Assembly: GCF_017220215.1 (NCBI RefSeq)
Contig: NZ_CP071131.1
Coordinates: forward strand, 744,001-808,000
Source of the DNA: Caballeronia sp. M1242
GTDB lineage: Bacteria; Pseudomonadota; Gammaproteobacteria; Burkholderiales; Burkholderiaceae
Direction: 5' to 3'
Length of the DNA stretch: 64,000 nucleotides
The stretch's first letter is position 1, and each line of letters begins with the position of its first letter. Below the pieces are notes generated by a model that was given only the letters and a program-made list of their open reading frames with translations, ran no database searches and had not been told where the DNA came from. Both the position numbers and the translations under genes were made by a program. Positions 10,754 through 20,047 of this stretch are shown piece after piece.

Positions 10754-11473
10754 ATGCGTTTAAGCGTCGAACGTTCGATGAGCGACAAGATACAGGAGTC
10801 GCTTCTCACGATGATCCGCGAGCGCAAGCTCAAGCCCGGCGACCAGATTCCGACGGAAATCGAGCTATGCGAGCTGCTGGGCGTGGGGCGTTCGAGCCTG
10901 CGCGAAGCGGTCGCGCAAATGATCTCGCACGGACTGCTCGAACGCGTGCAAGGCAGAGGAACGTTCATCAGACAAATTTCGCTCAAGCTGCAAGGCGGGC
11001 TGGATGATCTGATGTCCGTGACCGACATGATCAAGAGTGTCGGCGCGGTACCGTCGACGAGCCGCATCCACATAGACATCATTGGGGCATCGGACAGTCT
11101 TGCGGAAAAGCTGGGTATCGAGGCAGGCGACGAATGCGTGCGCATCGAGCGGGTGCGCCGCGCGGACGACGCGATTGCCGCGTACTGCATCGACACCATC
11201 CCGAAGACGCTGTTCGATGCCGCGGACGGGGAACTGGGTGAGTCGCTGTTCGGCATGTTCGCGCGTACCGGGCGCCGTTTGTCCCACACGCATACGTCGA
11301 TACAGCCGACCATCCTCACGCCGCGCGATCTGCCCGAACTGGGCGATGGCTTCGGTCTGTTTCTGCTGCTGGACGAAGTAGATTTCGATCAGAGCGGCGA
11401 GCCGCTTTGCTATAGCAACGACTACTACAACACGAGCATCTTCAAGTTCGACCTGGTGCGCAAACGTCGCTGA
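10754..11473 (+). CDS. GntR family regulator, HutC/UTRA subfamily
   Basis: A 239-residue regulator. The N-terminal winged helix runs to about residue 70 (LKPGDQIPTEIELCELLGVGRSSLREA, then LLERVQGRGTFI). The C-terminal part is a UTRA ligand domain, recognisable by the closing GEPLCYSNDYYNTSIFKFDL. UTRA repressors bind small metabolites, often phosphosugars. It heads an operon for sugar kinase, isomerase, aldolase and importer, 45 bp before the kinase gene, so a pathway sugar or phosphosugar is the probable inducer. Confidence 0.88.
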   Translation: MRLSVERSMSDKIQESLLTMIRERKLKPGDQIPTEIELCELLGVGRSSLREAVAQMISHGLLERVQGRGTFIRQISLKLQGGLDDLMSVTDMIKSVGAVPSTSRIHIDIIGASDSLAEKLGIEAGDECVRIERVRRADDAIAAYCIDTIPKTLFDAADGELGESLFGMFARTGRRLSHTHTSIQPTILTPRDLPELGDGFGLFLLLDEVDFDQSGEPLCYSNDYYNTSIFKFDLVRKRR

Positions 11474-11518
11474 AGCGTTCCGCTGACCTGCGCGCTCAAC
11501 ACATCGGAGGAGACACCG

Positions 11519-12787
11519 ATGGAGTTCGAAGCATTTACCGCAGCCGCACTTGCCGATTACCTCGGCGGCATCCCCGAAGTGCGCGCGCGGCTGGGCGATC
11601 CCGACGATCTCGAGATCGTCGAAGTGGGGGACGGCAATCTCAACTTCGTGTACTTCGTGACCAACGCGAAGGCGCGCGAGCGCAGCGTCGTCGTGAAGCA
11701 AGCGCCGCCGTTCCTGCGGCTCGTCGGCAAGAACTGGCCGCTGTCCTGCCAACGCATGGAGCATGAAGTCGCGGCGTTGCGACGCTTCGGCGCGTTGTGC
11801 CCGCAGCATGTGCCGCAGGTCTTTCACGCCGACAGCAAGCGCTTCCTGATGGTCATGCAGCATCTCTCGTCGCATCGCATCTTGCGGCACGGGCTCATGG
11901 ACGGCGTGCGGTATCCGCTGATGGCCGAGCATCTGTCGACGTATCTCGCGCAGACGCTCTTCTTCGGCTCCGATCTCTATCTCGCGCCCGACATCAAGAA
12001 GCAGGCCGTGGGCGCCGCCGTGAACGCGGAGTTGTGCAAGATCACTGAAGACCTCGTGTTCACGTTTCCGTTCGAAGACCATCCGTCGAACGTCTACAGC
12101 GCGGCCTTGCCGAGGTCCGCGCTCGAACGCCTGCGCACCGACGATGCGTTGCGCCTGGCCGCCGCCGACATGAAATGGGCCTTCATGAATCATGCGGAAA
12201 CGCTGCTGCACGGCGACCTGCACACCGGCTCGATCATGGTCAACGAGCGCGAGACCTATGTCATCGACCCGGAGTTCGCCTTCTACGGGCCGATGGGCTT
12301 CGACATCGGCGCGCTGATCGCCAACCTGCTGCTTGCGTATTTCTCGCGCGATTATCACGGCCGCGTCGATGGCGGCGAACCCGGCGCGTATCAGGAATGG
12401 CTGCTCGATCAGACGGCGCGGATCTGGAACGGCTTCAGCGCGAAGTTCCTCGCGCTCTGGCGCGATCACGAAAGCCGAAGCGGCCGGCCCTTTATCGGCG
12501 GATCGGCGGATAGCCGCGCGGCCGACGCATACCGCACGCACTTCATGCGGCGGCTTCTGGCGGACACGCTGGGCTTCGCGGGCTGCAAGATGATCCGGCG
12601 CATCGTCGGCATGGCGAAGGTCGCGGAGATCACGCGCATTCCCGACGCCCATGTCCGCGCGCAGATCGAAGTGCGCTGCCTGCGCTGCGCCGAAGCGCTG
12701 CTCGTGCAGCGCGCCGCTTTGACCGGCATCGAAGATGTCACCCTGCTCGCGCGCGACATGCAGCGCGAGGCCGTCGAACAACGCTGA
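11519..12787 (+). CDS. mtnK: S-methyl-5-thioribose kinase (MtnK family)
   Basis: A 422-residue cytosolic kinase with the aminoglycoside-phosphotransferase/protein-kinase fold. It phosphorylates 5-methylthioribose, and in some bacteria 5-deoxyribose, at C1 with ATP. The MtnK-specific catalytic loop HGDLHTGSI starts near residue 231 and the metal-binding IDPEFAFYGPMGFDIG near 249; the family Lys lies in VVVKQAPPF. Length matches MtnK (about 400-430). A GGAGGAGACACC RBS precedes ATG 11519. It lies 11 bp before mtnA. No nucleosidase gene is present nearby, so the substrate is probably free sugar brought in by the linked importer. Confidence 0.9.
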   Translation: MEFEAFTAAALADYLGGIPEVRARLGDPDDLEIVEVGDGNLNFVYFVTNAKARERSVVVKQAPPFLRLVGKNWPLSCQRMEHEVAALRRFGALCPQHVPQVFHADSKRFLMVMQHLSSHRILRHGLMDGVRYPLMAEHLSTYLAQTLFFGSDLYLAPDIKKQAVGAAVNAELCKITEDLVFTFPFEDHPSNVYSAALPRSALERLRTDDALRLAAADMKWAFMNHAETLLHGDLHTGSIMVNERETYVIDPEFAFYGPMGFDIGALIANLLLAYFSRDYHGRVDGGEPGAYQEWLLDQTARIWNGFSAKFLALWRDHESRSGRPFIGGSADSRAADAYRTHFMRRLLADTLGFAGCKMIRRIVGMAKVAEITRIPDAHVRAQIEVRCLRCAEALLVQRAALTGIEDVTLLARDMQREAVEQR

Positions 12788-12798
12788 CTGGAGCATGA

Positions 12799-18326: not shown

Positions 18327-18387
18327 AACACGCGACGTCAACGAATAACGCAGGACATCGACAGGCAAACCAAGGAGACACGCGAAG

Positions 18388-19398
18388 ATGAAGAAGATCA
18401 TCAACAACCCGGAAACCTTCGTCGACGAGATCATCGACGCCCTCTTGCTTGCGCATCCGAGATGGATCAAGGCGGCGAACGCGGACAAGCGCGCGCTCGT
18501 TCGCGCCGATGCGCCCCGCGAAGGCCGCGTAGGCATCGTGACCGGCGGCGGATCGGGCCACATGCCGGGATTTCTCGGCTATGTGGGCGAAGGCTTGTGC
18601 GGCGGCGTGGCGGTGGGCAACGTGTTTTCGTCGCCATCGTCGGAACAGATTCTGGAGGCCACCAAAGGCGTGAATGGCGGGGCGGGCGTGCTTTACGTGT
18701 ACGGCAATTATGGCGGCGACGTGCTCAACTTCGATCTCGCGTCGGACCTCGCGGATGCCGAAGGGATCGAAGTGAAGACCGTCGTGCTGACCGATGACGT
18801 CGCATCGGCGCCGAAGGAGCGCGCGTCCGACCGGCGCGGCGTCGCGGGCATGGTGTTCGCGTTCAAGTGCGCGGGCGCGGCGGCCGAACGCGGCGACTCG
18901 CTGGAAGAAGTGGCCCGCATCTGCGCGAAGGCCAATGCGAACTGCCGCACCATGGGCGTCGGGCTTTCGCCGACCATTCTGCCCGCGGCTGGCAAGCCCA
19001 CGTTCACGCTGCCGGATGGCGAGATGGAGATCGGCATCGGCATCCACGGCGAACCGGGAACGCATCGCGGCGCGCTGCAGTCGGCCGATGCCATCGCAGA
19101 GAATCTGATGCGCCAGATTCTCGACGATCTCGCGGCGCCGAAGGGCTCGCGGCTCGCGCTGCTCGTCAACGGTCTGGGCGCGACGCCGCTCGAAGAACTG
19201 TATCTGCTGTATCGGCGCGCGTCGAAGATCGCCGAGGGCGATGGCCTGTCGATCGCGTGGTCGTACGTTGGCGAATACGTGACGAGTCTGGAAATGGCGG
19301 GGGCATCCATCACCGTCATGCTGCTCGACGATGAACTCGAAGCGCTGCTCGCCGCACCGGCGCATTCGCCGTTCTTTCGCGAAGGCACGCGCGCATAA
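18388..19398 (+). CDS. dhaK: Dihydroxyacetone kinase subunit DhaK family protein
   Basis: A 336-residue substrate-binding subunit. GGGSGHMPGFLGYVG at residues ~53-67 and GIGIHGEPG, whose His220 is the residue that binds the ketose carbonyl covalently in DhaK, are both present. Its partner DhaL follows 13 bp later; no DhaM is present, so ATP rather than the PTS is the likely phosphoryl source. AAGGAGACACGCG precedes ATG 18388. Because the aldolase route gives DHAP directly, the reason for a ketose kinase here is unclear; it may accept another short ketose. Confidence 0.85.
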   Translation: MKKIINNPETFVDEIIDALLLAHPRWIKAANADKRALVRADAPREGRVGIVTGGGSGHMPGFLGYVGEGLCGGVAVGNVFSSPSSEQILEATKGVNGGAGVLYVYGNYGGDVLNFDLASDLADAEGIEVKTVVLTDDVASAPKERASDRRGVAGMVFAFKCAGAAAERGDSLEEVARICAKANANCRTMGVGLSPTILPAAGKPTFTLPDGEMEIGIGIHGEPGTHRGALQSADAIAENLMRQILDDLAAPKGSRLALLVNGLGATPLEELYLLYRRASKIAEGDGLSIAWSYVGEYVTSLEMAGASITVMLLDDELEALLAAPAHSPFFREGTRA

Positions 19399-19411
19399 TC
19401 GGGAAACCTAA

Positions 19412-20047
19412 ATGATTACGACGAGACAAATGCGGGATCTGTTGTCCCACGCATTGAGTGAGCTTCCGTCTCATGCCGACGAGCTACGCGATCTCGATGC
19501 CGCACTCGGCGACGGCGATCTCGGCATCACCGTGCGCGCGGGGGCGGAAGCGGTTGTCAAGGCAATCGGCGCGCTGCCCGACGAGGCCACGCTCGGCGAC
19601 GTGCTGCTCGCCGCAGGGAAGGCGTTTTCGACGGCCAATCCGTCGACATTCGCGGCGTTGGTGGGCGGCGGCCTGCTTGCCGCCGCGAAGACCGTGCAGG
19701 GCAAGGACGCATTGGGACGCGACGAGGCGCTCGCCGTCGGACGGGCGGTGGCGTCACGCATTACCGAGCGTGGCAAGAGCAAGATCGGCGACAAGACCGT
19801 GCTCGATGCGCTGGCGCCGAGCCTCGACGTGCTGGAGGCATCGCAGGGGAGCGCGGCCGATACACTCGACGCGATGATCGCCACGGCGAGCGAACGCGTC
19901 GTGGAAACGGCGAAGATGCAGTCGCAGAAGGGCCGCGCGGCGTGGGTGCAGGAACGAAGCATCGGCCATCCCGATCCCGGCGCGACGGCCTATGTGCGGT
20001 TTCTGGAAGCGTTGCGCAGGGCGGTCGATCGAGGCGCGCCGGCGTGA
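19412..20047 (+). CDS. dhaL: Dihydroxyacetone kinase subunit DhaL family protein
   Basis: A 211-residue ATP-binding subunit of a two-protein DHA-type kinase. The Mg-binding Asp cluster is in LDAALGDGDLG near residues 28-38 (canonical DhaL has GDGDHG; the His is Leu here). The C-terminus carries the GHPDPGATAYVRFL segment typical of ATP-dependent forms. It is the last gene of the operon and is followed at once by a GC hairpin. Confidence 0.85.
   Translation: MITTRQMRDLLSHALSELPSHADELRDLDAALGDGDLGITVRAGAEAVVKAIGALPDEATLGDVLLAAGKAFSTANPSTFAALVGGGLLAAAKTVQGKDALGRDEALAVGRAVASRITERGKSKIGDKTVLDALAPSLDVLEASQGSAADTLDAMIATASERVVETAKMQSQKGRAAWVQERSIGHPDPGATAYVRFLEALRRAVDRGAPA

Follow-up and report, generated by a model that had tools for sequence, protein, structure and literature searches.

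Why would a bacterium place a ribose-type sugar importer and a pair of dihydroxyacetone kinase-like subunits in one operon with the enzymes of a dihydroxyacetone phosphate (DHAP) shunt? This question is raised by a locus of the soil bacterium Caballeronia sp. M1242 that lies in a stretch of 64,000 nucleotides (contig NZ_CP071131.1, positions 744,001 to 808,000), hereafter called the window. Nine intact open reading frames occupy positions 10754-20047 of its plus strand and encode, according to Pfam and NCBIfam families, a GntR/UTRA regulator (R), MtnK (K), MtnA (A), a class II aldolase (L), the binding protein (B), ATPase (T) and permease (P) of a ribose-type ABC importer, and DhaK (D) and DhaL (d). 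The genes are separated by 45 (R-K), 11 (K-A), 56 (L-B), 56 (B-T), 61 (P-D) and 13 (D-d) bases and overlap in an ATGA at both A-L and T-P (-4 each), with the start codons of the aldolase (222 aa) and the ATPase read at 13875 and 15793. The original prediction, made from the letters of this DNA, had listed the same nine genes on one strand with the same two overlaps, and the open frames and family matches bear it out. We consider it an evenly balanced proposition that the locus is a substrate-induced catabolic operon through which ribose-type sugars are imported and degraded as C1-phosphates, with MtnK and MtnA handling aldoses and DhaKL perhaps handling ketoses.

The kinase, isomerase and aldolase genes are contiguous, which is the gene content that defines a DHAP shunt. 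The MtnK-type C1 sugar kinase (11519-12787, plus strand as for all nine genes; 5-methylthioribose/5-deoxyribose kinase family; 2olc, 2pyw) scores 505.7 bits against the curated TIGR01767 cut-off of 275, and the MtnA-type aldose-1-phosphate isomerase (12799-13878) scores 433 bits against the TIGR00512 cut-off of 279. The third enzyme is a FucA/Ald2-like class II ketose-1-phosphate aldolase (13875-14543; PF00596). Its Glu80, His99 and His101, which had been predicted to be intact, correspond in the alignment to the E. coli FucA residues Glu73, His92 and His94. Twelve of the 13 FucA positions examined are kept, including His155, Tyr113, Phe131, Phe206 and Tyr209, and Thr43 is replaced by Ser. The aldolase is 52% identical to FucA and 44% identical to the E. 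coli shunt aldolase, itself 58% identical to FucA, and it scores 238 bits with FucA and 130 bits with DrdA (6btd). These scores do not support a DrdA orthologue, but the FucA likeness of the E. coli shunt aldolase deprives the comparison of weight. It matches the ribulose-1-phosphate aldolase model at 167 bits, below the cut-off of 300, and the MtnB dehydratase model at 60 bits, far below the cut-off of 137. Because MtnK and MtnA exceed their cut-offs and the class II active site is preserved in the aldolase, the kinase-isomerase-aldolase route to DHAP and an aldehyde that the original prediction had named is likely. By homology to the Bacillus thuringiensis pathway demonstrated in vitro (PMC6079011), MtnK very probably converts an aldose to the aldose-1-phosphate, MtnA the latter to the ketose-1-phosphate, and the aldolase this product to DHAP and an aldehyde.

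Seven positions of MtnK and three of MtnA separate near from far sequences (57 near versus 64 far for MtnK; 59 near versus 52 far for MtnA) and are candidate specificity positions. Those of MtnK were dropped as an importer-linked signal, as they do not track the importer type.

The arrangement is conserved among close relatives. A genome scan with MtnK yielded 79 loci, and the 57 nearest (L008-L064) were checked for all nine genes. As many as 46 of the 57, mostly from Caballeronia and Paraburkholderia, hold all nine in the same order and on the same strand, which argues that the arrangement did not arise by chance and answers the search for this gene order in other genomes that had been suggested. 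Of the other 11 loci, four are truncated where their contig ends (L017, L020, L027, L040), five hold K-A-L only (L034, L036, L037, L038, L058), one is decayed (L061, Candidatus Paraburkholderia) and one is different (L062). Within the family, MtnK is present in 54 of the 388 genomes searched and in 4 of 25 genera, so that the operon has an uneven distribution even in related genomes. Wider samples gave MtnK in 37 of 398 genomes across the phylum, the window's own counted, and in at least 194 of 398 genomes from the class of G001, a Brevibacillus-type genome.

The five K-A-L-only loci, all from Paraburkholderia, lack both the importer and DhaKL and still carry the palindrome described below, with at most 2 mismatches. 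The regulator remains as short N-terminal pieces in L034 and L036 and as stop-broken pieces in L038 and L058; L037 has no recognisable regulator and only an unlike GntR gene (24%) on the opposite strand. Since the importer, DhaKL and an intact regulator are missing together in these loci, they behave as one layer, and K-A-L is able to stand alone. Moreover, a different contig of the genome encodes a 5'-methylthioadenosine/S-adenosylhomocysteine nucleosidase (297.7 bits, cut-off 169). The earlier statement that no nucleosidase or phosphorylase gene is present thus holds for the operon but not for the genome. Given this nucleosidase and the five relatives with K-A-L but without the importer, the shunt need not depend on import, and internal feeding is possible; both observations fit a K-A-L core that also handles sugars made by the cell.

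The importer consists of an RbsB-like (ribose-type) binding lipoprotein (14600-15736; PF13407), whose closest solved relatives are ribose-binding proteins, a double ABC ATPase (15793-17328; PF00005 in two stretches) and a permease (17325-18326; PF02653), for which the top model is a ribose permease, although the score is below the cut-off. A lipobox-like LAGC agrees with the predicted lipoprotein nature of the binding protein. All ten residues of the RbsB ribose pocket, as listed in Table 3 of PMC2630998 and, for nine of them, also in PMC3676853, are kept in the binding protein and are invariant in 50 of 50 orthologues, counted as the sequences from the 57 loci that reach 60% identity or more over 231 residues. 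Outside these loci, L144 has ten of the ten, and L133 and L134 have nine each. Binding proteins encoded beside mtnK in three alphaproteobacterial loci (L092, L093, L094) share no more than 22-24% identity with the window protein and lack R90, F164, N190 and Q235. 5-Deoxyribose and methylthioribose have no 5-hydroxyl group, so a pyranose ring is impossible for them. Periplasmic ribose-binding proteins are described as all binding the pyranose form, beta-D-ribopyranose (PMC2630998). Because the full ribose pocket is kept, relatives bind a pyranose and 5-modified riboses cannot form one, a ribopyranose-like ligand is favoured over a 5-modified ribose. RbsB proteins have also been reported to bind AI-2, a non-pyranose signal. 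The pocket evidence thus leans toward a ribopyranose-like ligand, but contact residues alone do not fix specificity, and the binding protein scores below the RbsB equivalog cut-off (195 versus 337 bits). Whatever the sugar, import probably feeds the shunt core.

What is the role of the DhaKL pair, which the original prediction had correctly listed but left without an explanation? Both subunits, DhaK (18388-19398; PF02733) and the DhaL-type ATP-binding subunit (19412-20047; PF02734), fall below their curated cut-offs, with 378 versus 406.25 bits for TIGR02363 and 123.3 versus 138.3 bits for TIGR02365. DhaK keeps H56, D109 and H218 (E. coli numbering), which we take to be the catalytic residues. 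The window sequence and those of its Burkholderiaceae orthologues have GHMP or GHLP in place of the motif GHEP and GNYGGD in place of KNYTGD (GHMP and YGNYGGD in the window), such that E57 becomes M or L, K104 becomes G, and T107 is also changed. In E. coli DhaK, K104 lines the dihydroxyacetone pocket. In a DhaK tree of 59 rows, the window sequence belongs to a separate clade of 27 (support 98/95) that includes neither the canonical KNY enzymes nor a GHEP-GNYAGD group; this tree omits the near loci of the MtnK scan except 9, short stretches that duplicate longer ones, and 11 rows for which no longer stretch was at hand (L100-L102, L124-L131), all with GHEP-type motifs. Judged by score, motif and tree, the window DhaKL does not qualify as a standard dihydroxyacetone kinase. 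The genome also encodes a fused DhaK-DhaL elsewhere, which makes the operon pair a second copy. DhaM has no match in the genome, with control matches in E. coli, L. lactis and H. volcanii; a phosphotransferase system-driven kinase (DhaKLM) was therefore rejected, and ATP is the likely phosphate donor.

The company that this DhaK clade keeps elsewhere is informative. Outside the Burkholderiaceae operon type, the clade is represented by 14 distinct loci (L080, L096, L097, L098, L133-L136, L144, L148, L211, L213, L218, L222), seven of which (L080, L096, L133, L134, L144, L211, L213) encode DhaK and a sugar ABC importer within one run. DhaKL, MtnK, MtnA, a class II aldolase and a CUT2-type importer meet in one run in three builds from two phyla, that is, the Burkholderiaceae operon, L080 with a different aldolase (41%) and a different binding-protein type, and L144 with a rhamnulose-phosphate-aldolase/dehydrogenase fusion (L144:12462-14612; 654 bits, cut-off 568) beside mtnK-mtnA and DhaKL. 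Because these partners come together in three builds and two phyla, a shared function can be argued, although the cases are few. In Bacilli, DhaK has more than 60 matches in 398 genomes; among the 20 stretches examined together with L080, two of 21 hold MtnK, as rechecked by tblastn. In Pseudomonadota, the neighbours were read for all 36 MtnK loci of the 398-genome phylum sample other than the window's own. In 18 of them, one of which is from the same genus, the 20-kb surroundings of mtnK include a CUT2-like ATPase-permease pair. DhaK occurs in two of the 36, L175, which is from the same genus, and L188, whose DhaK belongs to another clade and has an MFS gene in between.

These loci hold further features of their own. 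The aldolase/short-chain dehydrogenase fusion of L144 might convert the aldehyde immediately, by oxidation or by reduction. In the Brevibacillus-type cluster L080:11421-13752, BioY, BioD and BioB are encoded immediately 3' of dhaL; BioB is a radical-SAM enzyme that yields 5'-deoxyadenosine. L221, L223 and L225 each carry two distinct DhaK genes close to each other, both of the GNYAGD/GNYTGD kind and near an ABC sugar importer, and these paired DhaKs are possibly tetrose (erythrulose) kinases. A permease-kinase fusion suggested by a long open frame in L213 was rejected, since the permease lies in a separate frame.

The operon is preceded by an 18-bp perfect palindrome (10704-10721, no strand), which the original prediction had not listed, located 32 bp upstream of the regulator gene (10754-11473; PF00392, PF07702). 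With up to 3 mismatches allowed, no other site in the window matches it (0.02 matches expected); genome-wide, the exact sequence occurs once, at this position, and one further site has 3 mismatches. A copy with at most 3 mismatches is found within 1.5 kb upstream of mtnK in 56 of the 57 nearest loci (0 mismatches in 40, 1 in 11, 2 in 2 and 3 in 3), and the nearest match in the remaining L062 has 7 mismatches or worse. As a control, the best match within 1.5 kb downstream of mtnK has at least 5 mismatches in each of the 57 loci. The palindrome is a candidate operator of the GntR/UTRA protein. Promoter-like sites were uninformative in 10550-20450 (none found, 1.1 expected by chance), as were terminator-like sites in the same range (seven versus 6.6 expected, none of which stands out).

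How might these parts work together? Gene content, order, strand, conservation, family membership and active-site residues can be read from the DNA, and from these we infer the following course. The GntR/UTRA protein would be bound at the palindrome and released when a pathway sugar or its phosphate is present. The sugar would then be taken up by the RbsB-like importer, an aldose would be phosphorylated at C1 by MtnK and isomerized by MtnA to the ketose-1-phosphate, and the FucA/Ald2-like aldolase would cleave the latter to DHAP and a two-carbon aldehyde. The aldehyde would depend on the sugar, with acetaldehyde expected from 5-deoxyribose, methylthioacetaldehyde from methylthioribose and, if ribose enters, glycolaldehyde from ribose. 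ATP-driven DhaKL could serve as a second C1-kinase that phosphorylates a ketose directly, such that an aldose door (MtnK-MtnA) and a ketose door (DhaKL) converge on the aldolase. The K-A-L core would act likewise on methylthioribose or 5-deoxyribose produced in the cell by the nucleosidase encoded elsewhere. In its most specific form, this proposal is a two-door C1-phosphate pathway on a ribose-type importer, in which the DhaK clade is a ketopentose (or 5-deoxyketopentose) 1-kinase rather than a dihydroxyacetone kinase and ribose possibly yields DHAP and glycolaldehyde without ribose-5-phosphate; in this detail it is doubtful.

Several observations weigh against this proposal. MtnK is held by only two of the 14 clade loci outside the Burkholderiaceae operon type (L080 and L144, both also with MtnA and a class II aldolase), and L133 and L134 combine an RbsB-like importer and DhaKL with no K-A-L. 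In L133, moreover, genes for a PfkB-family kinase, a fructose-6-phosphate aldolase and a transketolase lie close by, which fits dihydroxyacetone as the DhaKL substrate. Sugar ABC importers also lie near GHEP-type DhaKs (e.g., L215, L216, L219, L221), so the importer-DhaK link alone says little and it is the MtnK link that is telling. Furthermore, according to PMC6079011, DrdK is inactive on ribose, and the fitness data cited there show no drdA role on common sugars. On balance, we tentatively favour C1 phosphorylation of a ketose, as a second way into the same aldolase, over plain dihydroxyacetone phosphorylation, which we regard as rather unlikely. A ketose-phosphorylating DhaKL would not be redundant, because DrdK is inactive on 5-deoxyribulose (PMC6079011).

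The substrate-induced catabolic operon must be weighed against other explanations. The original prediction saw a dedicated scavenger of 5-deoxyribose and/or 5-methylthioribose released by other organisms, in which the importer binds these sugars and DhaKL is a side activity. The importer genes indeed lie in the operon in 46 of the 57 loci, K-A-L match the known shunt, the ATPase-permease pairs near mtnK in half of the Pseudomonadota loci read point the same way, and there is precedent in transporter-bearing shunt clusters of other bacteria (PMC6079011) and in an E. coli operon with a permease (PMC12632272). Against dedication to 5-modified riboses stand the fully kept ribose pocket, with its beta-D-ribopyranose-binding relatives (PMC2630998), the different type of binding protein near mtnK in L092-L094, the cell's own nucleosidase and the five relatives with K-A-L but no importer; we find this explanation rather doubtful. 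The same pocket speaks for a ribose operon that avoids ribose-5-phosphate, in which D-ribose is imported and phosphorylated at C1 by the MtnK relative, the product is isomerized, and the resulting ribulose-1-phosphate is cleaved by the aldolase to DHAP and glycolaldehyde. The kept FucA residues, the match to the ribulose-1-phosphate aldolase model, albeit below its cut-off, and the pairing of the same importer type with a PfkB-family kinase in L133 agree with such a route, as does the reported activity of B. subtilis methionine-salvage enzymes on ribose (Nakano 2013a, cited in PMC6302742). It is nevertheless unlikely in view of the DrdK inactivity on ribose and the fitness data mentioned above.

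The locus could instead comprise two unrelated units under one promoter, one a K-A-L shunt with a housekeeping role and the other an importer and DhaKL devoted to a different sugar, since importer and DhaKL occur without K-A-L in L133 and L134 and K-A-L occurs without them in the five Paraburkholderia loci. However, the two parts are joined in three builds across two phyla and are kept together in 46 of the 57 loci, which makes their independence improbable. Ordinary methionine salvage, to which the MtnK and MtnA families might point, was rejected as extremely improbable: acireductone dioxygenase (PF03079) has no match in the genome, with control matches in 5 of 14 genomes (MtnB, MtnC and MtnW were not searched genome-wide), and the aldolase is far from the MtnB cut-off. 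If, as the substrate-induced catabolic operon implies, the importer and regulator are truly tied to the shunt enzymes, the shunt would be a main catabolic route in some Burkholderiaceae, beyond waste disposal and later carbon use. If the importer takes ribose, the shunt would also serve to degrade ribose without passing through the pentose phosphates, and if DhaKL acts on ketopentoses, the genes of its clade that are annotated as dihydroxyacetone kinase would be misnamed.

The surroundings of the operon include other sugar-related genes. Just upstream, at window positions 5504-9706, the permease, binding-protein and ATPase genes of another ABC importer of the ribose type precede a gene of the Asp/Glu-racemase family. 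Relatives are found at that place in 9 of the 57 nearest loci, among them L017 without a racemase match. This importer (5504-9016) was rejected as a part of the system, given that close relatives lie upstream in only those 9 loci, some loci having too little upstream sequence. Farther away, a 699-aa protein (362-2461) has two stretches that match sugar-ABC permease models and is probably two fused permeases, and positions 22538-26374 encode a CoA-transferase III, a shikimate dehydrogenase, a Gfo/Idh oxidoreductase and a type II dehydroquinase consecutively.

The link between shunt and importer has precedent. Beaudoin 2018 (PMC6079011) described kinase-isomerase-aldolase trios, drew four clusters with putative sugar transporters and proposed salvage of exogenous 5-deoxyribose; the salvage idea of the original prediction is thus not new. 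Searches of open-licence full texts on the shunt enzymes, on DhaK in connection with methylthioribose or 5-deoxyribulose, and on importers of methylthioribose or 5-deoxyribose revealed neither a paper on an operon such as this one nor a description of DhaKL with the shunt, which is no proof of absence, and the term dihydroxyacetone kinase does not appear in the main text of the published shunt papers examined, PMC6079011 included. In Alphaproteobacteria, mtnK-mtnA likewise lie beside a sugar ABC importer of the CUT2 type (L092, L094), but those loci continue with DXS-like and RuBisCO-like genes instead of a window-type aldolase, have another binding-protein type and show no annotated DhaKL in the stretch. 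L092:5106-14414 and L094:5165-14406, with mtnK-mtnA, split DXS-like genes, a RuBisCO-like gene and a divergent sugar ABC importer, resemble an isoprenoid-shunt cluster with its own importer.

The window DhaKL shares the Dak1 and Dak2 folds and the three conserved residues H56, D109 and H218 with dihydroxyacetone kinase and differs from it at E57, K104 and T107, in its sub-cut-off scores and in its separate clade. The drdK-drdI-drdA cluster of B. thuringiensis (PMC6079011) has the same trio of kinase, isomerase and class II aldolase, some clusters of this kind having putative sugar transporters; the window aldolase scores higher with FucA than with DrdA, and the window adds the RbsB-like importer, the GntR/UTRA regulator and DhaKL. 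The DHAP shunt of E. coli ATCC 25922 (mtnK-mtnA-ald2-permease, with MtnR and CRP; PMC12632272, PMC10986504) shares the three enzymes, inducible carbon use and a nucleosidase gene apart from the operon (PMC12632272), and growth of E. coli on 5-deoxyribose via this shunt has been published (PMC10986504, PMC12632272). K, A and L are 39%, 44% and 44% identical to their counterparts in a different E. coli strain, whose gene copy was assigned to the shunt from its gene order. E. coli has a GRP-family transporter where the window has an ABC importer, its stretch has no DhaKL, and its regulator is different. Shunt clusters with sugar transporters, the idea of exogenous 5-deoxyribose salvage and E. coli growth on 5-deoxyribose are thus already known, and the locus described here adds a variant with DhaKL and an RbsB-like importer.

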